NCBI GenBank assembly: GCA_903915225.1
Contig: CAIWSB010000012.1
Coordinates: 1-40,545, forward strand
Origin: an uncultured Candidatus Woesearchaeota archaeon
Lineage (GTDB): Archaea; Nanobdellota; Nanobdellia; Woesearchaeales; B29-G15
Length of the DNA: 40,545 nt
Direction of reading: 5' to 3'
Shown here: one piece after another, positions 2,141 to 30,512 of the stretch
Layout: every line of letters begins with the position of its first letter
Position numbering within the stretch: the stretch's first letter is position 1
Notes under the pieces: model-generated
What the model saw: only the letters and a program-made list of their open reading frames with translations
Told to the model about the DNA's origin: nothing
Database searches by the model: none
Made by a program: the position numbers and the translations under genes

Positions 2141-3613
2141 TTAAAAAAATGTTTTTGTTGAGTTCTGCATGCGCCAAGGATCTTGAATGGGGTTTACTCT
2201 CAAGTAATAGAACAGCATTGATTGCAGCATCTTAAGCTTTGTCTTAAGCAGTATGCTGCTTGTGGCAAACAAAATTAATCCCCAAAAAAGAGAATTAGAG
2301 TTTTGATTGAGTTTTTGCTTGCGCAGCAGTAAATCATATTCCAAGGCCCATTTATTTAGCTCTTCCCCGGTTGTATTTGGAGAGCTCACACCAGACCCTC
2401 CACAATTAAGATGCAAAACATCAGCAACTTTAAAGCCTTCCTTAAGAAAAATCTCTCTTATGTCTGAGCCGGGCCAGGGTTGGACTAATAAAGGAATAAT
2501 TGACACGTTATGAATGCCCTTTACTGCTCTGACAAGCTGCATAGAGTTATGTTTAACTTCTTGTATTGATTTCTCAAATCCAGTGTTTAGAATCTGATAA
2601 AAATTAATGCTGCCATTAAAGGAAGATTGACTGATTATTCTGAGAAGCCGCCGAGTGTCTTCAATCTTATCCTCTAACATGAATATTTTTTTTCCTTCTT
2701 CGCTTAGAGTCTCTATTCCTACACTAATTTCTATAACATTCATTTTTCTCAAACTATCCATAACCTCAGGATGATTCAGGAAAATCGCCCCTGAAACTTT
2801 TATTGAGGATTTCATGGTGTAGAGTTTCTTTGAGATATATTCCCCGAAAAATTTTTGGAAATATGGATAAGAGATAATGGCATTATCATCCAAAAATTTC
2901 AAATATTTTACTCCTTTTCTTTTGAGGGTAACTAATTCAGCGATTACATTTTCAACTGATCTTGTGCGGTATTTTCTACTGTAGAAGTTTTTTATCGAAC
3001 AAAAAGAGCAATTGAAAATGCAGCCACGGGAAGTTGCAACTGAAGCAGATCTAAACCTAATCTTTCTTATCGGGAAAGGGAAAGAGTCTAAGTCTTGAAT
3101 CAGCTCTCTTTTAGGGGTGTATTGAGAAGTACCTTGCCGAAGAAATGCTATTCCCCTAATATCATCAAAATGATTTGAACCAATGAGTATCCGCTGAACC
3201 AATTCAAGAAAAGTCTGCTCGCCTTCACCAACCACTAAAAAATCAACTTTATTGCCTAGTGTTTTAAAAATAGATTCAGAAGAAAATGTTGGGAGATAAC
3301 CACCCACTATTACTTTTGTTGACGGGGAAACTTTTTTTATGTATTTTGATATCTTGATTAAGGCATTGAATTGCCAGAACATTGCAGAAATTCCAACAAT
3401 TCTGGGCCTGAATTTTCTGAAGTAGTGCGGAAAATCTTGCCATACGCAGTCCACTATTTGGCTTTTTAAACCCAAATTTTTCTGCAAGTAACTTGCAATA
3501 TAACCTAAGGAAAGCGAAGAAGCATATCTCTGCTTTAAAAAACCATCAAACGTGACCAATGGGTTTACTAGTAGAATCATCTTATTTCTTTGGTTATTAC
3601 TATAACTCACCAT
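2141..3613 (-). CDS. B12-binding-type radical SAM protein
   Basis: A 490-residue protein. The N-terminal part (about 1-170) resembles the cobalamin-binding domain of B12-dependent radical SAM enzymes (ILLVNPLVTFDG, VGGYLPTF, GEGEQTF at about 129-135). The radical SAM core follows, with the iron-sulfur cluster motif C198-x3-C202-x2-C205 in SRGCIFNCSFC. Members of this superfamily do methylations or rearrangements on unactivated carbons; the substrate here cannot be read from sequence. It is a close paralog of the 489-residue protein at 5575-7044 along its whole length, including promoter and leader. The start ATG at 3613 has no ribosome binding site. A TATA box at 3686-3697 implies a leader of about 45 nt whose last bases (AATCTAACAAAATGG) are nearly the same in the paralog. 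Confidence 0.85.
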   Translation of the reverse strand: MVSYSNNQRNKMILLVNPLVTFDGFLKQRYASSLSLGYIASYLQKNLGLKSQIVDCVWQDFPHYFRKFRPRIVGISAMFWQFNALIKISKYIKKVSPSTKVIVGGYLPTFSSESIFKTLGNKVDFLVVGEGEQTFLELVQRILIGSNHFDDIRGIAFLRQGTSQYTPKRELIQDLDSFPFPIRKIRFRSASVATSRGCIFNCSFCSIKNFYSRKYRTRSVENVIAELVTLKRKGVKYLKFLDDNAIISYPYFQKFFGEYISKKLYTMKSSIKVSGAIFLNHPEVMDSLRKMNVIEISVGIETLSEEGKKIFMLEDKIEDTRRLLRIISQSSFNGSINFYQILNTGFEKSIQEVKHNSMQLVRAVKGIHNVSIIPLLVQPWPGSDIREIFLKEGFKVADVLHLNCGGSGVSSPNTTGEELNKWALEYDLLLRKQKLNQNSNSLFWGLILFATSSILLKTKLKMLQSMLFYYLRVNPIQDPWRMQNSTKTFF

Positions 3614-3968: not shown

Positions 3969-4160
3969 TTAGAAGAGAATTAAAAATAATTTATCTTCAA
4001 GGCATCGGCTTTTTTGGCAGCTCCGCTCCTCCTGCGGAAATCCGTAGGGACCGCCAGATACACCGGAGAATTTCTGAGTGTCCATCGGCTGAGGCCTCTG
4101 TACGTCCCCTACCCTGGCGGCGCCACGGTCACTAGAAGAAGCAGTTTGTTCCATATTCAC
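3969..4160 (-). CDS. Doubtful 63-residue hypothetical protein
   Basis: An open frame starting with GTG that overlaps the stop of the gene at 4157-4477 by the four bases GTGA, the layout of translational coupling. The protein (MNMEQTASSSDRGAARVGDV and onward) is rich in Ser, Gly, Pro and Gln and would be disordered. I recognise no family. It may be a genuine small tail gene or only an open frame behind 4157-4477. Confidence 0.25.
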   Translation of the reverse strand: MNMEQTASSSDRGAARVGDVQRPQPMDTQKFSGVSGGPYGFPQEERSCQKSRCLEDKLFLILF

Positions 4161-5574: not shown

Positions 5575-7044
5575 TTAAAAGAAACGTTTTGTTGAATTCA
5601 ACATGCGCGATGGGTCTTTTGTAGAGCTTACTCTAATATAATATGAGAACAGTGCCCAAGCCATCTTCAGCTTTGTAATTGGTCGTATGCTGCTTGTGAG
5701 GAAAAAAATAAGTCCACTAAAAAAAGAATGCGGTGTGTAATGCTTTCTTTGTTTCCTTATCAGTAGTTTATACTCCACGACCCAATCGTTGAGTTGCTTC
5801 TCACTTATGAATTTAGAGGCCACACCGGATTCTTCCATCTTTAGGTGAGTGACATCTGCAACTTTTAGCCCTTTCTGGATGAACATCTCCCGTATATCTG
5901 AGCCAGGCCATGGCTGTATCAGGGCAGGGAGAATTGTGATATTTTTAATTCCTTTAACTGCTTGAAGGAATTTTATTGAGCTATCTTTAACCTCATCTAT
6001 TGATTTCTCAAAACCTGTATTGAGTATCTGGAAAAAAGTGATGTTGCCTTTGAATGAAGATCTCCTTATTATCCTTATGAGCTCTGATGGGTCCCTTATC
6101 TTATCCTTAACGCGCAATAACTCCCTTGCTTTATTATCCATTGTCTCCACACCCACCGCAAATCCCCGCACATTCATCTTTCTCATCTTGTCAAGAATAT
6201 GCGGATGGCTTAAAATCAGAGAGCCCGAAACAGACATTGAAAACCTCATAGTTTGGAGGTTATTTGAGAAGCATTCGCGATAAAACTCATTGAAAAGGGG
6301 GTACGAAACAAAAGTATTGTCATCTAAAAATTTCACATATTTAACTCCCATGCGCTTAAGCGCAATTAGCTCTGAGATTAAGTTCCCAACAGATCTTGTT
6401 CTATACTTCCTGCCATAAAAATTCTTTATAGAACAAAAAGAGCAATTGAATGGGCAACCCCTGGAAGTTATAACTGAAGCACAACCAAATCGAATATCTC
6501 TATCCGGAAAAGGAAACAAATCCAAGTTATTTACTATTTCCCTTGATGCAGAAAAAACAGGATTTCCATTATTATAGTACGCAATCCCATGTATATCCTC
6601 AAAATGGTTTGAGCCTCCAAGGATTCTCTGGGAGAGTTCAAGAAAAGTTTGCTCACCTTCTCCCAACACCAAAAAGTCAACCTTACTGCCAAGGCTATCG
6701 AATATTATATTCGGAGAGAATGTGGGAAAGTAGCCCCCAACCACAACCCGAGTGGATGGTGACACTTTTTTAGTGTATGTAGCAATTTTTTTAAGTGCAT
6801 CAAATTGCCAGAACATTGCAGAAATTCCAAGAATTCTTGGCTGGAATTTTTTGAGGTAATATGGAAAATCCTCCCATACGCAATCAACCCTCTGACTCTC
6901 TAACCCCCCCTTACTCTTCAAATAACTCGAGATGTAGCCTAAAGATAGCGGGAAACCGTATCTAATTTTTAAAAGACCATCAAAAGTTACTAGTGGATTT
7001 ACAAGCAAAATCCTGTTATTTTGTTGATCCAAAGAATTTACCAT
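5575..7044 (-). CDS. B12-binding-type radical SAM protein (paralog)
   Basis: A 489-residue protein, roughly two-thirds identical by eye to the protein at 2141-3613. The N-terminal cobalamin-binding-like domain has ILLVNPLVTFDG, VVGGYFPTFS and GEGEQTF (about 128-134). The radical SAM core has C197-x3-C201-x2-C204 in SRGCPFNCSFC, then a C-terminal helical extension. Substrate unknown. It is the last gene before tRNA-Leu, convergent with it and only 8 nt away, so the two transcripts run into each other. The leader of about 45 nt ends in the same sequence as in the paralog (AAATCTAGCAAAATGG). No maturase, transporter or peptide substrate gene lies beside it. Confidence 0.85.
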   Translation of the reverse strand: MVNSLDQQNNRILLVNPLVTFDGLLKIRYGFPLSLGYISSYLKSKGGLESQRVDCVWEDFPYYLKKFQPRILGISAMFWQFDALKKIATYTKKVSPSTRVVVGGYFPTFSPNIIFDSLGSKVDFLVLGEGEQTFLELSQRILGGSNHFEDIHGIAYYNNGNPVFSASREIVNNLDLFPFPDRDIRFGCASVITSRGCPFNCSFCSIKNFYGRKYRTRSVGNLISELIALKRMGVKYVKFLDDNTFVSYPLFNEFYRECFSNNLQTMRFSMSVSGSLILSHPHILDKMRKMNVRGFAVGVETMDNKARELLRVKDKIRDPSELIRIIRRSSFKGNITFFQILNTGFEKSIDEVKDSSIKFLQAVKGIKNITILPALIQPWPGSDIREMFIQKGLKVADVTHLKMEESGVASKFISEKQLNDWVVEYKLLIRKQRKHYTPHSFFSGLIFFLTSSIRPITKLKMAWALFSYYIRVSSTKDPSRMLNSTKRFF

Positions 7045-10754: not shown

Positions 10755-13448
10755 TCACAAACTTGGATAATCCCTTATGTTCTTCGGCCAGTTGAAGACA
10801 TGGCTGTCACCTTCAAATGTAAGGCTGACAGTTAATTTCTCATCATCCCAGTGTATCTTGGCCTCTGGCTGCTTCACTTCCTTGACAACAGGCCTCATGC
10901 CGAGGTTTGGCAGCGAGTCATTGATATGAAACTTGCCATCCCAGCACGGCTGGTCAATCAGGAAAATGTATGATCTGCATGGCACAACCAGGTCTGCGTC
11001 AGGCTCCCAGTAGCGCCAGAGATAGGGGTTGCCATATTGGTTTGGAGAGCGAACCTGGCGAGGAATACCAGTTGCCATATCTATCTCATCAGGATGTATC
11101 AATCCTGGAGAGCCCGCAGGCACAACAACCTCGCGGGGCGTTCCAACAATTTGTTCACCCTGAACCTCGGGGTGGTCGATGAGCCATTTCCTGCCAACTA
11201 TTGCAGAGTCTAAGAACTCAACAAAGTTGGAGCCCTGCAAGGATTCAACCATCTGAACATCGCTTTTTGCCTTTGCATCAGCAAGAATTTGCCAATACTC
11301 AGAAAGGCTTAGTAATCCTGCCCCAAGCTTTCCCGCAATCTCCTTTGCCTCTGGGTAGGTTATGCGGTTGATTCTGCCTTCTATATCTGTTGACAAGGCC
11401 CCTGTGGCTTTTTTCAATTCACCAGTGAGCCTCTGGAAATCCCGCTTTACCCACACGTCAATAGTTGGGGAATAGAAGTACCTGTTGAATGCAGCCACAA
11501 CTGGCTCTAGCACAGGTGCAGTTGCCTTTCTTGAGAGCTGCAGGCCAGTGCCCCAGAAATCAAGATAATCTTGGCCGAGCTCGAGCTGTGTGCCGTTGAA
11601 GTGGAACCTGACAATCGCCTCAAGCACATCCCTGGTTGTCTGCTTGAATTCTTCTGAGGCCTCATCGTTGAATACAAAGTACAAACGCTCACGGTTCACG
11701 GTCTTATGGTCGTTCTTGTAGTCTGTTATCTTCAGCAATGTCATGGGGAGGTGCTTTGAGGTGTTGTTCTCATGGCCCATCTTGTAGAGCCCCTCAATCA
11801 GCTCTGGCTTCAGCGCCTCGCCATGCTGCCCGAAACCTTCGCTTATCTTAGCGACTGCAAACCCAAAGCCCCAATCTTCTTTGTAATCTCTCCTGAAAAG
11901 CACGCTGGCATCATTTGTGTTCAGAAGACGCCCCATTAGTTCTGAGTAGAATGTATTATCATCTCTAACGCCAGCCTCACGGGCAAGGTAATCCATTATG
12001 ACCTTATCCCCAGGCGTCATCTTGTGCTCAACCCTGTTCTCAGTATCCATTAGGGTTGCACCGTACAAAACTTTGGCCAACCTGCCCTGAATCTTGAGGC
12101 CCATGCCAAGGTATTTCCTGGCAATTAGCGCAGAGCATGAGCCCCACATCTCCATTGTCTTGGGGATATTGCGTTGCTTGGCTGCCTCAGTGGCCACGTG
12201 ATGGTCAATTATTGTGTTGAAGTATTTCTGGACCTCAGGCTCGCGGTTCTGGTCAACTGAAATCCAGCGTGCCAGGCCAGAGGATTTTGCCTTTGTATAA
12301 ATATCTGAATCTGAAACAAGAACGCTGGAGCCCAAATCCTCCAGCAGGTGCAACACCTCTTCTGGGAGTTTTGAGCCCTGCACTACTGGCACATAAGCAG
12401 TTCTGGAACCGTTCATCAGGTGGTTCCTGTATGCCTCAAACAGACAAGATATGGCTGTGTCTGTGTCAGGGTTCTTGTGCCCCATGACAAAAACAACGTC
12501 CTGGCCCTTTTCAAGCGCGTTCTCAAGCAGTGACTTGGATGAGCTTACAAACTCTGCAAAACCTTCGTAGGTGAGCTGGCCTTCAACACCAGACAAACTC
12601 TTCATTACATCTGCAATATCATTCTCTAGCCCGTAAGCTCCCAGGGAATCAAACAGGCGCTCCCTGATTGATTGTATAAGTGGCTCCATGGAATCTGATA
12701 ATAATTGGCCGTACTGCGAAACAAAATCAAGAAGCTCAGGTGGCTTGCCAGCTGCAAGCAGTGATTCAACCTTTGAGACAATTGCCTCATCAATCAAAGG
12801 TTTAATGGGTTCATAGCGTGCTTCGCGCAGCATGAGCTTCGGCTGCCTTGAGTTTACTGGAATCCCCAAATCAAATGAGGGCTTGCCCACTGAGGTTACA
12901 TAACCTCGGATTGGCGCAACTGCACCCAGCTTTGTAACAGTAAGGTCAGGAGCCCAGTATTTCCATGATTTTGCATACTTGCCACGCTGGGTTTCAACAA
13001 CAACCGGCTCGCCTGTTGCAGGGTTGATGTTGTTTTCCGGATCAAACCAGCCGGGCCTGCCGCTCGGCTGAACTGCAACCTCCTCATTTCCAGCATATTT
13101 ATACTGGGAGGCAACCAGTGGATGATCAATGAAAGTGCTCTCACCAAGATATACCCTATCAAGCCATTCGGCATATCTGATGGAAGTGAGCTCGGAAACC
13201 ATGTCCTTATCGCCTGAGGCCCTGGCGTCATCCAAGACTTTCCAGTATTGCCTGGGGCTAAGCATAACCCCGCCTAGGGCCTCAAGAATTCTTTTTGAAT
13301 CATCAAAGTCAATGTTGCATAGGCGCCCCTCACCATCCCAATCTATTACTACACCCCCAGCTACATCCTTCACCCTAGAGGAGATGGCGAGAGGCTTTCT
13401 GGAAACATAAAGCCCTGTGGAGGGGGAGTAAAAAAACTCCTGCCTCAT
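10755..13448 (-). CDS. DHH-family phosphoesterase (manganese pyrophosphatase-like) with a duplicated flanking domain
   Basis: An 897-residue protein. The core (about 315-560) is a DHH domain like family II inorganic pyrophosphatases: GHKNPDTDT at 323-331, the DHH triad at 415-417, D468 in LMDTEN, and a DHHA2-like C-terminal part with a conserved KITD segment. Family II pyrophosphatases are Mn/Mg-dependent and about 310 residues long. Here the core sits between two copies of one extra domain of about 170 residues. Copy 1 (about 50-215) has SPRQYWKVLDDARASGD, FIDHP, PGWFDPENNINPATGEP and KYWAPD. Copy 2 (about 695-862) has SLSEYWQILADAKAKSD, LIDHP, PGLIHPDEIDMATGIP and RYWEPD. The role of this domain is unknown. 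The gene overlaps the stop of the upstream P-loop gene by 4 nt, so the two are coupled. The substrate could be pyrophosphate or a nucleotide. Confidence 0.8.
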   Translation of the reverse strand: MRQEFFYSPSTGLYVSRKPLAISSRVKDVAGGVVIDWDGEGRLCNIDFDDSKRILEALGGVMLSPRQYWKVLDDARASGDKDMVSELTSIRYAEWLDRVYLGESTFIDHPLVASQYKYAGNEEVAVQPSGRPGWFDPENNINPATGEPVVVETQRGKYAKSWKYWAPDLTVTKLGAVAPIRGYVTSVGKPSFDLGIPVNSRQPKLMLREARYEPIKPLIDEAIVSKVESLLAAGKPPELLDFVSQYGQLLSDSMEPLIQSIRERLFDSLGAYGLENDIADVMKSLSGVEGQLTYEGFAEFVSSSKSLLENALEKGQDVVFVMGHKNPDTDTAISCLFEAYRNHLMNGSRTAYVPVVQGSKLPEEVLHLLEDLGSSVLVSDSDIYTKAKSSGLARWISVDQNREPEVQKYFNTIIDHHVATEAAKQRNIPKTMEMWGSCSALIARKYLGMGLKIQGRLAKVLYGATLMDTENRVEHKMTPGDKVIMDYLAREAGVRDDNTFYSELMGRLLNTNDASVLFRRDYKEDWGFGFAVAKISEGFGQHGEALKPELIEGLYKMGHENNTSKHLPMTLLKITDYKNDHKTVNRERLYFVFNDEASEEFKQTTRDVLEAIVRFHFNGTQLELGQDYLDFWGTGLQLSRKATAPVLEPVVAAFNRYFYSPTIDVWVKRDFQRLTGELKKATGALSTDIEGRINRITYPEAKEIAGKLGAGLLSLSEYWQILADAKAKSDVQMVESLQGSNFVEFLDSAIVGRKWLIDHPEVQGEQIVGTPREVVVPAGSPGLIHPDEIDMATGIPRQVRSPNQYGNPYLWRYWEPDADLVVPCRSYIFLIDQPCWDGKFHINDSLPNLGMRPVVKEVKQPEAKIHWDDEKLTVSLTFEGDSHVFNWPKNIRDYPSL

Positions 13449-14107
13449 CTAAGGGTCACCTTCAGCTTCGCAACTTCAACAGGGTTGTAGAACTGCATGC
13501 AGCTGTGAAACTCCGGCTCCATATCTCTCTTTGCCTCAGCCAGCAGCAGCTGTGCACGAGCCTCAAGCCCAATGTCCGGCACATACTGAACCTCAAACCT
13601 AAGAAGCTTGCTGTAGCGTTCGTAAACCTCCTTCAATTTTTTGTGAACCTCCATTGCTTCTTCTCGGGTCTCATGCCTCGCACGGTCATTCTCATAGCTC
13701 GTTAGCGGCTCGAGTATGTATACCTTGGAAATGCCTGCCTTCTCTATTGCCTCCGCGAGGCCCTCGGGTAACGCAATTTTACCCCGCTCGCAGTAAGCTA
13801 CTATATCTATCAATGAACGGTCAAGCCAAATTCTCCCGTTCCTTTCAGCAACAGAGTTGGGCATTGCCTCATTTTCCAACTGCTTTTCAAGAACGAGCCT
13901 TTCGAACTCTGGAAGGTTAGTATCTGGAAAAACTCCCTTGTAGCCTTTTCTCACTGCCTCCCTGCATTGCTCCCTATCAATAATAATCCTAGGGGCCTCA
14001 TCAATGAAGGCCTCACCTTTGAGTCTCAGCAGTTCACCGAGTGTTGACTTGCCGTTTCCGGGACCGCCGGAAAGCACGTATTTCCGAAGGGGGTTTGTTT
14101 GTTTCAT
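13445..14107 (-). CDS. P-loop NTPase, AAA_28/NadR-kinase-like
   Basis: A 220-residue protein. Walker A GGPGNGKST at about 14-22; then DEAPR (about 36-40), IWLDRSLID as a Walker B-like segment (about 92-100), and an Arg-rich lid (ENDRARHETREEA). This order fits the AAA_28/NadR-type nucleoside or metabolite kinases. The real substrate is not evident. It is the first gene of a two-gene operon whose second gene is the unusual DHH phosphoesterase, suggesting a kinase/phosphatase pair acting on the same or linked metabolites. Transcription is divergent from the TrmB-like gene at 14210, with the candidate operator at 14125-14141 between them. Confidence 0.75.
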   Translation of the reverse strand: MKQTNPLRKYVLSGGPGNGKSTLGELLRLKGEAFIDEAPRIIIDREQCREAVRKGYKGVFPDTNLPEFERLVLEKQLENEAMPNSVAERNGRIWLDRSLIDIVAYCERGKIALPEGLAEAIEKAGISKVYILEPLTSYENDRARHETREEAMEVHKKLKEVYERYSKLLRFEVQYVPDIGLEARAQLLLAEAKRDMEPEFHSCMQFYNPVEVAKLKVTLR

Positions 14108-18462: not shown

Positions 18463-19011
18463 GTGGAAGCTAAACGAATAGAGCGAAGTATATCGGAACT
18501 GGAGACATCTGTAGAGCCACCGGAGTTTCCCGCAATTCCAAGGTCGCTTTCAAACAAAATTGAGATTGTAGATGGCAGCAGAACTGCGATTTACACTGCT
18601 GAAATAAAGATAAGAGAAGAAAGCTATTATTATGGAATAATAACGGGATACATTTCCTTAGGAAGGTATGACCTGCTTGTTAATGCAAAAACTGAGCGGA
18701 AACTTGTGAGCATTTTTCCCTGGAAGGTAGAAATGAAACAGGTTCCTTATACTGAAGAGAAGCTCGTGTGGAATTACTTAACCCCTAACTATTGCACAAT
18801 TTTCAATTCAGATAAACCAGATCCAGAATACAGAAGAACACTGGCAGAGGGGATTCTTGGCAAATATAAAATTAAAGTGTCACCCGAACTCATCGCGCTA
18901 GCATTTGACCCAATTGAGCAGCAGATAGAGGAATGGTGCAAGAAATATAACGATATAGGTAAGAAGCGTGAAGAGATGATGACAATCAAAAGGGGGAAGA
19001 ACGGATGGTAA
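18463..19011 (+). CDS. ELM-family protein A1 (unknown function), first gene of array A
   Basis: A 182-residue protein, first of six tandem paralogs. I do not recognise the family; I name it after its C-terminal motif. A1 shows all the conserved parts: charged N-terminal helix (KRIERSISELETS, 4-16), NKIEIVDGSRTAIYTAEI (about 31-48), a Gly-rich strand pair leading to ISLGRYDLL, FPWKVE (where most have FPP), EKLVW, YRRTL, and the end motif SPELIALAFDPIEQQIEEW (139-157), followed by a basic tail. No signal peptide or membrane segment: cytoplasmic. It starts with GTG behind GGGGG. It overlaps A2 by 7 nt (ATGGTAA). Confidence 0.75.
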   Translation: MEAKRIERSISELETSVEPPEFPAIPRSLSNKIEIVDGSRTAIYTAEIKIREESYYYGIITGYISLGRYDLLVNAKTERKLVSIFPWKVEMKQVPYTEEKLVWNYLTPNYCTIFNSDKPDPEYRRTLAEGILGKYKIKVSPELIALAFDPIEQQIEEWCKKYNDIGKKREEMMTIKRGKNGW

Positions 19012-19508
19012 AGATTGAGAGGAGTATATCTGAACTAGAGCAAAGCATAAAGATGCCAGACCTGCCGCAGTCCATATCAAACTCAATTGAGGTTGTTGAT
19101 GGGAGCATATCTGCGGTTTACAGGGGAACATTTTCCAATTTTCAGCCAGTCTCAGGCCAGACTAGGGGGAGTATCTCTTATATCAATGGAACGGTTAAGC
19201 TTGAGAAATTTGCCCGCGAGAACCAAACAAGAAAAGAGAAGAGAATGGCTAAGCTTTTCCCTCCCAGATTCGAATATAAAACCGTCCAAACCCTTTCTGA
19301 AAAAAGAGTATGGCAACAGAACATTTATCAGATTCTGTTTAGTAACGGCAACCCAGAATTATCTTACCGTGCAATCCTGCAACGTGAAATTACCTTATCT
19401 TCCCAGGTGAAAGTTTCAAACGAGCTCATGGAATTGGTCTTTGGGCCGCTGGACAAGCAAATCCAGAATTGGTACAAGCAGAGGGAGGAGCTGCTCACTC
19501 CGAAATAA
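19005..19508 (+). CDS. ELM-family protein A2
   Basis: A 167-residue member of the array. N-terminal helix KIERSISELEQSI, then NSIEVVDGSISAVYRGTF, a Gly-rich hairpin, LFPPRFEYKTV, EKRVW, SYRAIL and the end motif SNELMELVFGPLDKQIQNWY. Its start codon lies inside the last codons of A1, so translation is coupled. It is followed by A3 after one base. Function unknown; soluble. Confidence 0.75.
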   Translation: MVKIERSISELEQSIKMPDLPQSISNSIEVVDGSISAVYRGTFSNFQPVSGQTRGSISYINGTVKLEKFARENQTRKEKRMAKLFPPRFEYKTVQTLSEKRVWQQNIYQILFSNGNPELSYRAILQREITLSSQVKVSNELMELVFGPLDKQIQNWYKQREELLTPK

Positions 19509-19509
19509 G

Positions 19510-20064
19510 ATGGAAACAAAAATCGAGAGGAAAATAGAGGACCTGGAGCAGAAGATAGTCACACCGCAACCTCCCACCAAGCCATCAGATAGTGTAATCC
19601 CATCAATGTTTTCCAACAGGATTGAAGTGACGGACGGAAGCATAACTGCAATCTACATTGGCATGTTTTCCCATCTGAATTACTTCAATAATAGGGATGA
19701 AAGTAATCGCCACAAGAGAAGAATATCAATATGGGGCAAAGCTAAATTAGTTCGTTTAGAGATCTGTCCAAAGACCGAAACTATCCAAAAGCTCACAAGC
19801 ATTGTCCCACCAAGGATAGAGAAGGAATACAAGAATTCCCTTGGTGAGAAGCAACTCTGGGAAGCCAAATTAGGGGGATATCCTGATTTAAACATTAATG
19901 GATCTACCCGCCTGAATTACAGAAAACAGCTTCAGGAGAAAATTGCCAAGAAATACTATGTAAAAGTCAGTGACGAGCTCATGTCCCAGGTTTTCAACCC
20001 ATTGGACCAAAAGCTTGTTGATTGGTACAAGTCCGAAAATGCAAGAATGGGGTGGAACCTGTAA
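19510..20064 (+). CDS. ELM-family protein A3
   Basis: A 184-residue member. The start is set at 19510 (METKIERKIEDLEQ) because it aligns with the starts of A4, A5 and A6 (METKxE) and directly follows the A2 stop; an open frame extends 69 nt further upstream but overlaps A2. Conserved parts: NRIEVTDGSITAIYIGMF, VPPRIEKEY (FPP varied to VPP), EKQLW, NYRKQL, and SDELMSQVFNPLDQKLVDWY. The stop overlaps the next ATG by one base (TAATG). Confidence 0.75.
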   Translation: METKIERKIEDLEQKIVTPQPPTKPSDSVIPSMFSNRIEVTDGSITAIYIGMFSHLNYFNNRDESNRHKRRISIWGKAKLVRLEICPKTETIQKLTSIVPPRIEKEYKNSLGEKQLWEAKLGGYPDLNINGSTRLNYRKQLQEKIAKKYYVKVSDELMSQVFNPLDQKLVDWYKSENARMGWNL

Positions 20065-20612
20065 TGGAAACAAAGGTTGAGAGGAAAATCTCAGATCTGG
20101 AGCATAAGGCATCTAGTCCCGAGACTCAATATATTCCAACTCTGCCCGCTGAAATGAGGAACAAGGTGGAGATAACAGATGGCAGCATAACCGCCATTTA
20201 CATTGGACGATTTTATTCTTTTTACTATGGAAAGGACAGACGTTTAATGGATGGAGTAATGAAAGATGTGTCTCATGTTAGTGCAACTGTCTCTTTGTCT
20301 AGATATGAATTATCACCATACACACAAACCAAAAAAAAGCTTGTGAGGGTGTTCCCTCCCAGATATGAGAGGGAAAATGTCCCGATGGTGCGTGAGAAGC
20401 TCCTTTGGAGAATCAAAAAGTGGTTTTACGATGAAATTCCATTGTTTACTGGCGGAGTAAGCACCTCATACCGAACCGTCTTAAAGGAAAAAATAGAGAG
20501 AAAACACAAGGTTGTTGTCACAGACGAGCTAATGGAGATGGTCTTCGGGCCACTCGAAAAGCAGGTTGCTAATTGGTTCAGTTGTGTGAATGATTCAACA
20601 AAGGTTAAATAA
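20064..20612 (+). CDS. ELM-family protein A4
   Basis: A 182-residue member starting METKVERKISDLEHK at 20064, overlapping A3 by one base (TAATG). Conserved parts: NKVEITDGSITAIYIGRF, VSLSRYELSPYTQTKKKLV, RVFPPRYERENVP, EKLLW, SYRTVL and TDELMEMVFGPLEKQVANW. It is the closest relative of A5; both share SRYEL-PYT-T-K-LVR and ELMEMVFGPL, suggesting a recent duplication. Two bases separate it from A5. Confidence 0.75.
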   Translation: METKVERKISDLEHKASSPETQYIPTLPAEMRNKVEITDGSITAIYIGRFYSFYYGKDRRLMDGVMKDVSHVSATVSLSRYELSPYTQTKKKLVRVFPPRYERENVPMVREKLLWRIKKWFYDEIPLFTGGVSTSYRTVLKEKIERKHKVVVTDELMEMVFGPLEKQVANWFSCVNDSTKVK

Positions 20613-20614
20613 AA

Positions 20615-21136
20615 ATGGAAACCAAGGTTGAGAAGAAAATATCTGAACTTGAGAGAAAGACTATTTCCCTCAGGGCCTCACTTCCACACAATTTTGAGAA
20701 CAAGGTAGAGGTTACTGATGGGAGCGTGACTGCCATTTACATAGGAAGCTTGTATTTTGTAAAGCCAAAAAAGGTGGAAGACAGAATATATGTGTCTGGC
20801 GGCATCTCACTTTCCAGATATGAATTAATCCCATATACACGAACTACCAAAAGACTTGTCAGAATATTTCCCCCCGAGTATGAGAGAAAAACTACCCCGA
20901 TGCTCCGCGAGAAGCACCTTTGGGAGACGTTTGAGTACTTTTCCCCTAGTAATTATTCTCAACTATATACTAATGGGGTACCTAATGAGAAGTGCCGGGC
21001 TGCTATTAAGGAAAAAACAGAACGAAAGCACAAAGTCATTGTATCAGATGAGCTCATGGAAATGGTCTTCGGGCCCCTGGACAAGCAGATTGCCGATTGG
21101 TACCAAAAGGTAACTGAGCCGCAGAGGGTGAAATAA
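20615..21136 (+). CDS. ELM-family protein A5
   Basis: A 173-residue member, METKVEKKISELERKTISLR and onward. NKVEVTDGSVTAIYIGSLYF, ISLSRYELIPYTRTTKRLVR, IFPPEYERKTTP, EKHLW, then SDELMEMVFGPLDKQIADWY. Very similar to A4 outside the Gly-rich hairpin, which varies in length between members. Followed by A6 after 2 nt. Confidence 0.75.
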   Translation: METKVEKKISELERKTISLRASLPHNFENKVEVTDGSVTAIYIGSLYFVKPKKVEDRIYVSGGISLSRYELIPYTRTTKRLVRIFPPEYERKTTPMLREKHLWETFEYFSPSNYSQLYTNGVPNEKCRAAIKEKTERKHKVIVSDELMEMVFGPLDKQIADWYQKVTEPQRVK

Positions 21137-21138
21137 TC

Positions 21139-21687
21139 ATGGAAACAAAGATTGAGAAGAAAATAAGCGAACTCGAGCAGTCGGTGGTTATACCTGAAAG
21201 GCCAAAACTCCCAACTGAAATCAAGAATCTTATCGAAGTCACAGATGGGAGCGTAACTGCATTTTATTGCGGGAAAATCATTGGGCTTGCTGAAAGCACC
21301 AATCCATATAGCCCTGAAAGAATTTCAATCACTGCAACCTCGGTAGAGCTTACTAGGCTTGAGAGGAGTGTAACCAGTGAAGTGCAGAGGTATATACACC
21401 TATTCCCTCCCAGATTAGAGAAGAAGACCATTCAAAGGGAAGAGATGAAAAATCTCTGGGCTAGCCAATATTCATGGAACACGCCTTTGCTGATCCAGGA
21501 GAATGGTAGCGGTAGACTACAATACCGGGCTGAACTGGCAAAGAAGATACTTTCCGAGCATAAGATAAAGGTCACACAGGAACTGATGAACCTGGTCTTT
21601 GACCCATTAAACAGGCAAATTGAGGATTGGTATCTAGCAGTACAGGATTGGAAAAGGGAAAAAGAGGAATTGATGAGCCTCAAGTAA
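21139..21687 (+). CDS. ELM-family protein A6, last gene of array A
   Basis: A 182-residue member, METKIEKKISELEQSV and onward. NLIEVTDGSVTAFYCGKI, VELTRLERS, LFPPRLEKKT, NLWAS, QYRAEL, TQELMNLVFDPLNRQIEDWY and a charged tail. The array ends here; about 100 nt later the promoter of the lipoprotein gene follows. Function unknown. Confidence 0.75.
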   Translation: METKIEKKISELEQSVVIPERPKLPTEIKNLIEVTDGSVTAFYCGKIIGLAESTNPYSPERISITATSVELTRLERSVTSEVQRYIHLFPPRLEKKTIQREEMKNLWASQYSWNTPLLIQENGSGRLQYRAELAKKILSEHKIKVTQELMNLVFDPLNRQIEDWYLAVQDWKREKEELMSLK

Positions 21688-26702: not shown

Positions 26703-27134
26703 ATGGAACTAAATGGTAAGCTAGAAGACTATGAATCTGATGTGAAGCTGCAATCTGAGTTAGAGAATGAAGTTACTATAATTGATGAAAACGGTGCCAA
26801 GCACGTCTATTGTGGCGGGTTCTACGACTTAGTGTATGAGGGGAGAGTCATACGGGGAAATGTTTACCTATCTGCCGATACACACAAGTCAAAGGATAAG
26901 CATGCTGCTCAGCTGTCAATTTCTGCTCCAAAAATCAGCAATTGGTCTATAGATGATTCTGACGTTCAATATGAGATAATCCGCGAGGGATTGCCTTCGG
27001 TGGATTACAGGAACGCAATCGAGAGAATGGCATTTGAGGAGGGTAAAAAACCCACCCAAAGGCTGCTCGACTCGGTTTTTGCACCAATCGAGGCCAAATT
27101 GCTCGATGCCTATGCAAAGCTTTGGGGGAAATAA
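26703..27134 (+). CDS. ELM-family protein B1, first gene of array B
   Basis: The shortest member, 143 residues (MELNGKLEDYESDVKL and onward). The usual core is reduced: NEVTIIDENGAKHVYCGGFY, a Gly strand pair RVIRGNVYL, SAPKIS in place of FPPxxE, VDYRNAI and the diverged end motif TQRLLDSVFAPIEAKLLDAY. Cytoplasmic, function unknown. It opens the second array and overlaps the ribosome binding site of B2. Confidence 0.7.
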   Translation: MELNGKLEDYESDVKLQSELENEVTIIDENGAKHVYCGGFYDLVYEGRVIRGNVYLSADTHKSKDKHAAQLSISAPKISNWSIDDSDVQYEIIREGLPSVDYRNAIERMAFEEGKKPTQRLLDSVFAPIEAKLLDAYAKLWGK

Positions 27135-27136
27135 AA

Positions 27137-27631
27137 ATGGAATCTGATTCAAGAAGGAAGGAGCTGGAAGTCAGGATAAGGGAGCTTGAAAGCGGAATTC
27201 TCCCATTGGTAGGCAAGGTTCCATCAAGATTCAAGAATGAGGTTTATGTCAAGGATCCTGAGACAGGCCAGAGATGCGTTTATGTCGGCAGGGTCACATA
27301 TCTGCATTTAAATGAATATCATAGGCTTAAAGGGATTTACCGTTTGGAGAGGTACAATATTGAGACAGTCGTGAATAAGAAAAAGAACGAACCAGCAAAG
27401 AGTGTTGAGAAAAGGTGCAGGGTTTGGAAAACCAGGACTGAAGTAGGGACGACCCAAACCATTCTTGACGAGTCAGGCAGACTCAGTAATATCCCAAGGG
27501 AAGATCTCAAGAAATGGGCTGCTATTAGAAACGTCGTATTGACAGATCGCCTCTTGAATGAGGTTTTCAAAACCATGGAAGATGAAATAGTAAAAGGATA
27601 TGGAGCCATAATAAAAAACAGATACAGGTAA
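27137..27631 (+). CDS. ELM-family protein B2
   Basis: 164 residues from the ATG at 27137 (MESDSRRKELEVRIRELESG). This start is chosen because GGGGGAAATAAAA directly precedes it, and because an N-terminal helix begins there as in other members. NEVYVKDPETGQRCVYVGRV, then a Gly-poor hairpin and an end motif TDRLLNEVFKTMEDEIVKGY that has lost the PLD. This is the most diverged member of array B. Ends 3 nt before B3. Confidence 0.7.
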   Translation: MESDSRRKELEVRIRELESGILPLVGKVPSRFKNEVYVKDPETGQRCVYVGRVTYLHLNEYHRLKGIYRLERYNIETVVNKKKNEPAKSVEKRCRVWKTRTEVGTTQTILDESGRLSNIPREDLKKWAAIRNVVLTDRLLNEVFKTMEDEIVKGYGAIIKNRYR

Positions 27632-27634
27632 AAG

Positions 27635-28147
27635 ATGCAAGAACAGGACAGCAGGGAACTTGAAGCAAGAATAGACGAGCTTCAGCCAACTTTGCTTAAT
27701 GGGGCAAGCAAGAAAAGACGATACAGTTATGAGCTCCGCGTGCGGGACCCGAATTCAGGCAAGAGGAGCATCTTTATGGGTGAATTCTACCACATTTTCA
27801 TTTTTCGTGAAGTGATTATGTGCAAGGTAAGGATGGAAAGATACGACATTGACTCCCAAACCAAACGGGCTCTGACCTCAATTAAAGGGTTCCCTCCCAA
27901 AATAGAGTTTGCTGAGAAGAATGTTGACCAGAAGAAAAGGGTTTGGAGGATTTACGGGCAAAGGTGTGGCTGGGACACGGTAATCATCAACGCAGATGGC
28001 AGCATTGGCCGAGAATACAGGGAAGAGCTAATCCGAAGCGCGAACAAACGCGGGGTAATCCTCTCCCCAACGCTCATGGATAGTGTGTTCTCACCGATTG
28101 AGGAGAAAGTTCTGGCAGCATACTCCCCAAACACAGGTAAAAAATGA
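27635..28147 (+). CDS. ELM-family protein B3
   Basis: 170 residues, MQEQDSRELEARIDELQPT and onward. YELRVRDPNSGKRSIFMGEF aligns with the same part of B2; then VRMERYDID, GFPPKIEFAEK, KRVW, EYREEL and SPTLMDSVFSPIEEKVLAAY. It overlaps B4 by 4 nt (ATGA), so translation is coupled. Function unknown. Confidence 0.72.
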   Translation: MQEQDSRELEARIDELQPTLLNGASKKRRYSYELRVRDPNSGKRSIFMGEFYHIFIFREVIMCKVRMERYDIDSQTKRALTSIKGFPPKIEFAEKNVDQKKRVWRIYGQRCGWDTVIINADGSIGREYREELIRSANKRGVILSPTLMDSVFSPIEEKVLAAYSPNTGKK

Positions 28148-28620
28148 CAGAAATAAAACAACTCGAGAGCCGTTTGACCGTTCCCATGCCCAGGGAAAAT
28201 AGGGTAGTTATTGAGGTTGATGGAAATGCAAGGGTTTATGTGGGAAGGATAAATGAATGTTATATCCAAAATGGCGGAGTTTACTGTTCTGCAACGCTGA
28301 CTGCCTTCAAACTCAAAAGTGAATCTAAAAAAAAGATTATCCGCAGGGGCCTGAGGCTGGAGCAGGTGCTTGTCCCCGGCAATCACTTTGTTGTGGACTG
28401 GAATTCAATTGTGAATGATAATCTGTGCAGTGGTTATGCAGTCACTCCCAACGGGGAACTATGCAAGGGGGAAGGGTCTTACAGGAGAGCCATTGAAGAG
28501 GCACTAACTTACAAGTGGATTGTTGTCACACAGAAGCTGATGGATAAGGTGTTTGATCCATTGGATGAGCCGTTACTAGCATTTTTCAAGGACTATATGC
28601 AGAAGAGGGGTCCTAAATGA
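28144..28620 (+). CDS. ELM-family protein B4
   Basis: 158 residues, MTEIKQLESRLTVPMPREN and onward, then NARVYVGRINECYIQNGGVY, a short core with LRLEQVLVPG in place of FPPxxE, GSYRRAI, and TQKLMDKVFDPLDEPLLAFF. Overlaps B3 and B5 by 4 nt each (ATGA). Members B4-B6 share the pattern xxNGELCKGEGSYRRAI / KGQLANGEGSYKQRL before the end motif. Confidence 0.72.
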   Translation: MTEIKQLESRLTVPMPRENRVVIEVDGNARVYVGRINECYIQNGGVYCSATLTAFKLKSESKKKIIRRGLRLEQVLVPGNHFVVDWNSIVNDNLCSGYAVTPNGELCKGEGSYRRAIEEALTYKWIVVTQKLMDKVFDPLDEPLLAFFKDYMQKRGPK

Positions 28621-29096
28621 GCCTTGAGGAAAGGATTAAAGTTCCTGATTCCTTAGAAAATAGACTCAAATTTAAAGATGGGCGAAGATACACAGCGACT
28701 TTAACTGACTTTAGGATGAGCGGGGGTGCGATCTACGGTGATGTAACCCTTTCAAGAAGTGATATTGTGACTAAGCATAACAAGAGAGTTGTTCTGGTCA
28801 AAGATTTCCCGCCCCATTTTGAATCCAGATGGGTGCCCCATGAAGAATACAATTTCGACAATTCCTGGTATTGCCAAAGGGAACAATGCCTCCTAATCGA
28901 TTCAAAGGGCCAGCTGGCAAATGGAGAGGGTTCATATAAACAACGCTTGCGTGACGAGGGATTCAGAAAAGGTGTTGTTATTAAGGATGAGCTGCTGGAC
29001 ACAATATTCAAACCGCTTGAAGAACAACTGACATCGCTGTTTAAGGAATACACTGCAAAGCGCGATTCTGTAAGAATTGAAAAGGTGGAAGAATGA
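28617..29096 (+). CDS. ELM-family protein B5
   Basis: 159 residues, MSLEERIKVPDSLENRLKFK and onward. GGAIYGDVTLSRSDIVTKHN, LVKDFPPHFESRWVP, GEGSYKQRLRDEGFRKGVVI and KDELLDTIFKPLEEQLTSLF. Closest to B6: GEGSYKQRLRDE versus GKGSYRERLREL, and KDELLDTIF in both. Overlaps B6 by 4 nt. Function unknown. Confidence 0.74.
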   Translation: MSLEERIKVPDSLENRLKFKDGRRYTATLTDFRMSGGAIYGDVTLSRSDIVTKHNKRVVLVKDFPPHFESRWVPHEEYNFDNSWYCQREQCLLIDSKGQLANGEGSYKQRLRDEGFRKGVVIKDELLDTIFKPLEEQLTSLFKEYTAKRDSVRIEKVEE

Positions 29097-29569
29097 CTGG
29101 GTTGGAAAGACTCGAGGAGAAATTGGAAATGCCACGTAAACTGGAAAAGGAACTCGAGATAAAGGGAGATGACGGGATAGTGTATTCCTACTGGGGGTGC
29201 ATAGGATATATATCCATGAAAGATGGAGCAATTTACGGAACTGCCACGCTTAACAGGAGTGATTACAGGATTGGACAAAAAAAGAAGACTGTGCTGGTAA
29301 AGACACCGTTCCCGCACTTCGAACCGAGATGGGAACAAACAAAGGAGTTTGAGGGTACTGTATGGCGTTTGTCAGAGGATGACCTTTTGCTAAACAAGGA
29401 TGGGGAACCAGTAAAGGGCAAAGGTTCGTATCGTGAACGACTCAGAGAACTAGCTTTTAGTAGCGGCATCGTAATCAAGGACGAACTGCTTGACACAATA
29501 TTCAATCCATTGGATGAGCAACTGGCTAAGATATACAAGCAATATGTTGCAAAGCGGGATTCAAAATGA
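29093..29569 (+). CDS. ELM-family protein B6
   Basis: 158 residues, MTGLERLEEKLEMPRKLEK and onward. GAIYGTATLNRSDYRIGQKK, TPFPHFEPRWEQ, GKGSYRERLRELAFSSGIVI and KDELLDTIFNPLDEQLAKIY. It is the near twin of B5 and ends in the same AKRDS tail, evidence of a recent tandem duplication. Separated from B7 by 15 nt carrying GAGGGG. Confidence 0.74.
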   Translation: MTGLERLEEKLEMPRKLEKELEIKGDDGIVYSYWGCIGYISMKDGAIYGTATLNRSDYRIGQKKKTVLVKTPFPHFEPRWEQTKEFEGTVWRLSEDDLLLNKDGEPVKGKGSYRERLRELAFSSGIVIKDELLDTIFNPLDEQLAKIYKQYVAKRDSK

Positions 29570-29584
29570 GAGGGGCGAACCAAA

Positions 29585-30052
29585 ATGGGGCTTGAATCAA
29601 AAATAGAATTACCATATCAATTAAGAAATGAGGTCTCAATTGAGACAGATAGTAAAATCTCAAAATATGTTGGCATATTCAATTCCTTCAGGATGAAGAG
29701 GGGGATGATAATTGGCTCTGTTGAGATGTGGAGAAATGATTACGAGTTAATAAAAAGGAATAAGCATGTCCTCAAATTCCCATTTAAGATTGAATCCAAA
29801 GAGGAGACTGTTGACAGATACCTTGGCCTCAAGTGGATGCTGAAAGCAGATTATGCTTTGCTGAGCGTCAAGGGCGAGCGGGCAACAGGGGAGCACTCCT
29901 ACAGGAACAGGCTTTTCAATGAGGGGTTCAGCAAGAAAGTTGTGCTGGGTGAAGAGTTAATGGACCGAGTATTTGCTCCAATTGACCAGCAGCTTGTGGA
30001 CATATACAAGAAGTTCATGGATGAAAAGGGGACTTTAGATGGAACAAACTGA
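29585..30052 (+). CDS. ELM-family protein B7
   Basis: 155 residues, MGLESKIELPYQLRNEVSIE and onward. SKYVGIFNSFRMKRGMIIGS, VEMWRNDYELIKRNKHVLKF, PFKIESKEE, HSYRNRLFNEGFSKKVVLG and EELMDRVFAPIDQQLVDIYK. An AGGGGCG ribosome binding site precedes the ATG. It overlaps B8 by 14 nt. Confidence 0.74.
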   Translation: MGLESKIELPYQLRNEVSIETDSKISKYVGIFNSFRMKRGMIIGSVEMWRNDYELIKRNKHVLKFPFKIESKEETVDRYLGLKWMLKADYALLSVKGERATGEHSYRNRLFNEGFSKKVVLGEELMDRVFAPIDQQLVDIYKKFMDEKGTLDGTN

Positions 30053-30512
30053 ACCACTCGAAAGCAAGGTTGAATTCGGGACAGTGAGCAATGAGGTAGT
30101 AACCGGTGATAGCGAGAATAGAGTTGGTTATGTGGCAAGGGTTGACAAGATCTGGCTAGATAGCAAGAGTGTCAGAGGGCGCCTCACATTATGGAAATAC
30201 AACCAAAGAGAGAAAACTGTTCGGAGAATCGTCGCCTCAACTAACCCTCTTGAATTGAGAATGCTAAAAGTCCCCATTTCGAAAAGGAAAACTGAGTGGA
30301 AACAAACCTGCGGAGATGCTGAACTCAAAGAGGATGGTTTACCTGGAAAATACTTCATTATAGACGGGAAAACAAGCGACCATTACAGGCAATGGCTGGG
30401 TAAGCTTTTAGGCGTTTCTAAGAAAGTGTATCTATCTGACGAGCTGATGAATAGACTTTTCAACCCAATAGATGAGCAGATAATGGCTAAATACAAGGAA
30501 GTTGTGAAATAA
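30039..30512 (+). CDS. ELM-family protein B8, last gene of array B
   Basis: 157 residues, MEQTEPLESKVEFGTVSNEV and onward. GYVARVDKIWLDSKSVRGRL, TLWKYNQREKTVRRI, TNPLELRML, DHYRQWLGKLLGVSKKVYLS and DELMNRLFNPIDEQIMAKYK. Its start lies inside B7. The array ends 2 nt before the stop of the convergent membrane protein gene at 30515. Confidence 0.74.
   Translation: MEQTEPLESKVEFGTVSNEVVTGDSENRVGYVARVDKIWLDSKSVRGRLTLWKYNQREKTVRRIVASTNPLELRMLKVPISKRKTEWKQTCGDAELKEDGLPGKYFIIDGKTSDHYRQWLGKLLGVSKKVYLSDELMNRLFNPIDEQIMAKYKEVVK

Follow-up and report, generated by a model that had tools for sequence, protein, structure and literature searches.

Family II pyrophosphatases (PPases; PRK05427/NF003877), among them the S. 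gordonii (1k20) and B. subtilis (1wpm) enzymes, are proteins of about 310 residues in which a DHH domain precedes a DHHA2 domain, and they carry the motifs GHxNPDTD, DHH, the Asp of SDT, DxK and SRK. The CBS-PPases (CBS/DRTGG-containing; PRK14869) join large, possibly regulatory domains to such a core: a CBS1-CBS2-DRTGG block that binds adenine nucleotides is inserted within DHH, and their activity has been proposed to be controlled through the mobility of DHHA2 (PMC10742508). PPX1, a cytosolic exopolyphosphatase (2qb6), and Prune have the same DHH-DHHA2 fold, enlarged relative to that of the PPases. A separate group of proteins, the variable proteins of diversity-generating retroelements (DGRs; TaqVP 5vf4, Mtd, nanoarchaeal AvpA) together with FGE/EgtB, has the C-type-lectin (CLec) fold.

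The window, i.e., the whole stretch of 40,545 nucleotides that was analysed, encodes on its minus strand (10755-13448) a protein with the layout CLec-DHH-DHHA2-CLec (CLec by predicted fold), whose frame and length of 897 aa were verified; at least eight further full-length members, at 43-54% identity, came from one scan of GTDB genome contigs, so that the layout is conserved in nine genomes. The protein has the domain order and the motifs of family II PPases in common with them, and it differs from them by its two CLec flanks, by VDQN and MDTENR in place of the canonical motifs, by an enlarged DHHA2 and by its score with the family model; its length, first remarked on in a preliminary description of this DNA, is indeed unusual. 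Like the CBS-PPases, it adds large, possibly regulatory domains to a family II core, but here they flank the core instead of interrupting it: CBS had no match in any member, and the alignment contains no insert at the place of the CBS-PPase insertion. PPX1 has no CLec flanks and is less similar in sequence than the PPases are. Unlike the CLec DGR proteins and FGE, the flanks are paired and fused to an enzyme, with no retroelement, hypervariable region or sequence match.

This is a new domain architecture on a known kind of enzyme, and it is apparently undescribed in the family libraries and papers searched: the literature search returned no paper that pairs "family II pyrophosphatase" with "C-type lectin", and none that combines DHH, inorganic pyrophosphatase and Omnitrophota. 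As a second mode of embedding a family II PPase in extra domains, distinct from the CBS insert, it would offer a new handle on the control of phosphoanhydride hydrolysis, and it places the predicted CLec fold in what appears to be cytoplasmic metabolism.

Layout and catalytic core

Regarding the layout, the protein begins and ends with homologous sequence: when residues 1-300 were compared with 641-897 by BLASTP, residues 3-217 aligned with 655-861 (70/217 identities, 32%, E 5e-32), the end-to-end repeat had a local score of 279 against a best of 68 among 1000 shuffles, and profiles of the N and C flanks from the nine genomes matched with a profile-profile probability of 100 and an E-value of 1.2e-48. 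The homology is thus stronger and longer than the preliminary description had claimed, and the limits given there, 50-215 and 695-862, are too narrow N-terminally in each copy. The N flank comprises residues 3-215 (12804-13442, minus strand, as for all features of this gene) and the C flank residues 656-865 (10854-11483); a helical linker (residues 216-316; 12501-12803), delimited by the secondary structure of the model and by conservation, joins the former to the core and is the least conserved part of the protein (0.43-0.56 across most of its length).

As for the core, the DHH domain (residues 317-500; 11949-12500) is matched by Pfam DHH with an E-value of 3.8e-6, slightly below the gathering score, and by the NCBIfam manganese-dependent pyrophosphatase model (NF003877) with an E-value of 1.1e-15, its 57.8 bits falling far short of the equivalog cut-off of 283 bits; together with the PDB matches to family II PPases, these hits cover residues 319-524. 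The divergent DHHA2 domain (residues 514-655; 11484-11909) is detected by its Pfam model in just one member (E 0.15), and it was located by its motifs and by the structural match of the core. In the alignment with PPases of related genomes (DPANN, Patescibacteria), seven of them canonical and one CBS-type, six motifs are in register: GHKNPDTD (motif I, GHKNPDTDT, residues 323-331; 12456-12482), VDQN (motif II, canonical VDHN, residues 398-401; 12246-12257), IDHH (DHH at residues 415-417; 12198-12206), MDT (motif IV, MDTENR, canonical SDT, residues 467-472; 12033-12050), DYK (residues 521-523; 11880-11888) and SRK (residues 639-641; 11526-11534). The core is therefore a complete DHH-DHHA2 pair (residues ~317-655); the earlier reading of an intact DHH core, with both GHKNPDTDT and DHH, was correct as to the motifs and too short in extent.

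All the metal-ligand motifs of family II PPases are present (GHxxPDxD, the D of VDxN, DHH, the Asp of SDT), as are the DxK and SRK motifs of DHHA2. Among the nine members, GHKNPDTDT varies at its two T positions only, the G, H, K, N, P and both D residues being the same in all. The catalytic machinery is judged intact from the homology to family II PPases. The family has nonetheless fixed some changes, VDHN to VDQN and SDT..SPTTT to MDTENR..KMT, with MDTENR invariant in the nine members, and its DHHA2 is longer than the canonical one and carries T, N and E residues that are conserved. Judging from these motifs, substrate specificity is uncertain, and PPi may not be the substrate, since the canonical SDT..SPTTT and VDHN are altered; because the equivalog cut-off is missed, membership of the PPases proper is not claimed, and the activity is a prediction by homology.

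In the AlphaFold2 model of the whole protein (mean pLDDT 82, with low confidence at 400-433, around the DHH motif), the best structural matches of the core are yeast PPX1, which has the best Foldseek E-values and a TM of up to 0.65, and family II PPases, with a TM of 0.73 to S. gordonii 1k20 over 355 columns (both normalised to target length). NrnA, DhhP and RecJ are weaker matches, so the pyrophosphatase-like character proposed earlier for the core held when these comparisons were run, family II PPases and PPX1 being structurally closer than NrnA and RecJ. An NrnA/RecJ-type phosphodiesterase, with cyclic dinucleotides or short oligonucleotides as its substrates, would agree with the DHH superfamily and with those weaker matches, but it is very improbable, given the far lower TM values, the assignment of SRK and DYK to DHHA2 and not to DHHA1, and the absence of a DHHA1 Pfam match in every member.

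A substrate larger than PPi, as for PPX1 and Prune, deserves some consideration, although we find it doubtful: the enzyme would not be a PPase, it would act on a nucleoside polyphosphate, short polyphosphate or phosphorylated metabolite, and the flanks would form part of the substrate site. The rank of PPX1 in Foldseek points this way, as do the invariant MDTENR and the conserved T, N and E of the enlarged DHHA2, which replace canonical signatures, and the nucleotide kinase neighbours described below; the GHKNPDTD and SRK motifs, however, are of PPase type, and PPases rank above PPX1 as matches to the core in sequence searches.

Flanks with a predicted CLec fold

The preliminary description had proposed a domain search with each flank alone and a structure prediction. 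By sequence, neither Pfam nor NCBIfam nor PHROGs has a family that fits the flanks at a meaningful E-value, there is no significant PDB match, and no CLec/FGE family was found in any member at E up to 1 (Pfam, NCBIfam). The structure of the N flank, predicted alone from 18 flank sequences, is confident (pLDDT 90.8, pTM 0.89), and its best 50 PDB matches are all of the CLec fold, going by their descriptions; they include TaqVP, Mtd, FGE, EgtB, SenA, CalU17 and animal C-type lectins. Each match is weak (the best E-value is 0.021, and probabilities reach at most 0.90), so the weight rests on the unanimity of the 50 and not on single ones. Among viral predicted structures, phage proteins matched with an E-value of 2.5e-4, and the lower ranks repeatedly contain entries for tail collar fibre, sulfatase-modifying-factor and C-type lectin proteins. 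In the full model, the strands and helices of the C flank follow one another as they do in the N flank. Both flanks are thus predicted to have a C-type-lectin/FGE fold, at fold level, which partly resolves the label of unknown domain that they had been given: they are unnamed in any library, and their fold can be named.

It is plausible that the flanks bind a regulator or ligand. A membrane or cell-wall ligand, also considered earlier, is less likely, since neither a signal peptide nor a transmembrane segment was evident when the N-terminus was inspected, and cytoplasmic-type kinases are the operon partners. The presence of TaqVP and Mtd among the fold matches, and of CLec variable proteins in Nanoarchaeota (PMC5006420), recalls DGR targets, in which case the flanks would be variable recognition domains and the core their effector; this is scarcely credible and is largely refuted, because an RVT_1 search found no reverse transcriptase in the window genome and conservation along the protein is among its highest in the C-terminal part of each flank (0.84 and 0.83).

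Distant stand-alone relatives of the flanks (~150-290 aa), of weak similarity, occur in four other genomes of the window's class, and their occurrence suggests an origin of the flanks by recruitment from an archaeal CLec-like family. Given the CLec variable proteins of Nanoarchaeota (PMC5006420), such a source is plausible, but sequence searches gave no link; the stand-alone relatives have no sequence match to solved CLec proteins either. Three of these four small proteins (L028, L029, L030, L031) end in an (L/I)GVR motif.

Distribution and evolution

By record title, the eight relatives come from Nanoarchaeota (two), Woesearchaeota, Micrarchaeota, an unclassified archaeon, Patescibacteria, Omnitrophota and an unclassified bacterium (L009, genome G106, of the same phylum as the Patescibacteria member); their number is a lower bound, since the scan used patterns from single sequences. 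The gene is rare, as profile searches found full-length members in 1/99 relatives (the window genome itself), in 1/285 genomes of the phylum of the Omnitrophota member, in 2/287 of that of the Patescibacteria member, in 1/301 of that of the Micrarchaeota member and in 2/298 of that of L003. It is single copy in each of the nine genomes.

The window genome is of the same class as that of the Nanoarchaeota archaeon L006, and in the tree its sequence groups with the Micrarchaeota one (support 97/94), while the bacterial L009 falls among archaea; horizontal transfer across phyla is therefore likely. The N flanks and the C flanks each form a single, separate clade (100/100), which places one duplication event, and with it the sandwich architecture, before this spread. 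DPANN archaea, Patescibacteria and Omnitrophota thus share the gene sporadically, a pattern that points to its exchange between lineages of small, often host-dependent cells. Viral contigs and phage and plasmid collections contained no members, and with zero matches there a viral or plasmid origin was rejected.

In L005, the upstream Ogg gene ends in a stretch of some 50-odd bases that recurs, imperfectly, at the end of the CLec-PPase gene (1106-1164 and 3973-4031), and the two C-termini agree (LDELDLLFWS..TG..LK); the repeat is a possible trace of insertion by recombination.

Gene neighbourhood and proposed function

In the window, the stop codon of an upstream gene for an AAA_28 P-loop kinase-like protein (13445-14107, minus strand; Pfam AAA_28 E 1.9e-22, and a weak match to the thymidylate kinase phrog_2107, E 1.3e-6) overlaps the start codon of the enzyme gene (ATGA). 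NDK genes overlap the start of the CLec-PPase gene in L002 and L004 (E 1.6e-35 and 3.1e-24), L006 has an AAA_28 gene on the opposite strand, 1.3 kb off, and L003 has a fragment whose suggestive match to AAA_28 (E 0.019) is restricted to the C-terminal end of that family. Elsewhere, the gene sits between Ogg and EndoIII genes (L005), has no adjoining kinase (L009), begins its contig (L007) or is embedded as a unit within a giant frame (L008). The tie to nucleotide metabolism is thus recurrent, not universal.

The window genome also encodes a short family I PPase, and the Pfam model detected no other DHHA2 protein in it; hence, bulk PPi removal need not fall to the CLec-PPase. PADLOC matched neither the enzyme nor its operon partner, and a defence system was set aside.

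On balance, the protein is probably a divergent family II PPase-type phosphoanhydride hydrolase with two CLec domains, and an accessory to a housekeeping PPase. Metal ions held by the DHH-domain motifs would activate a water, and the Lys and Arg of DHHA2 would bind the phosphoanhydride that this water cleaves; the substrate would be PPi or else a diphosphate linked to a nucleotide and connected with the co-encoded nucleotide kinase. The CLec domains, which enclose the enzyme core and would derive from one old duplication, may control the enzyme or determine its location by binding a ligand or partner. One way would be to limit how far DHH and DHHA2 can move relative to each other, a mechanism like that proposed for CBS-PPases; since one CLec domain precedes DHH and the other directly follows DHHA2, ligand binding or CLec pairing could open or close the cleft. 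The gene would pass by horizontal transfer between ultra-small or symbiont-type lineages of archaea and bacteria. Against this proposal stand the score of 57.8 versus 283 bits, the altered SDT..SPTTT and VDHN, the E-values of at least 0.02 for single CLec matches in PDB, neighbours that vary by genome and the low model confidence around the DHH motif. A new, horizontally spread regulatory or signal-processing hydrolase of ultra-small prokaryotes is unlikely on the present evidence; in it, the two CLec domains would respond to a metabolite or partner and thereby gate an active site derived from a PPase, whose substrate is a nucleotide that the co-encoded kinase makes or consumes and not PPi.

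The whole 13-kb Omnitrophota contig L039 (1-13044, minus strand) is taken up by a single open frame that runs off either end and codes for 4348 aa. It connects seemingly unrelated modules (pseudouridine-synthase-like, TPR-like and the CLec-PPase-CLec unit) through a hydrophobic linker, G(I/F/L)GE(I/V)xT, that is repeated three times; the product resembles a polyprotein, and the literature search found no paper linking Omnitrophota with one. In the window, fourteen mutually homologous tandem ORFs of ~143-207 aa form clusters of 6 and 8 on the plus strand (18463-21687 and 26703-30512), and the two members that were scanned had no Pfam match. Finally, two proteins of near-equal length that share one layout, B12-binding plus radical SAM, are encoded 2 kb apart on the minus strand (2141-3613 and 5575-7044).
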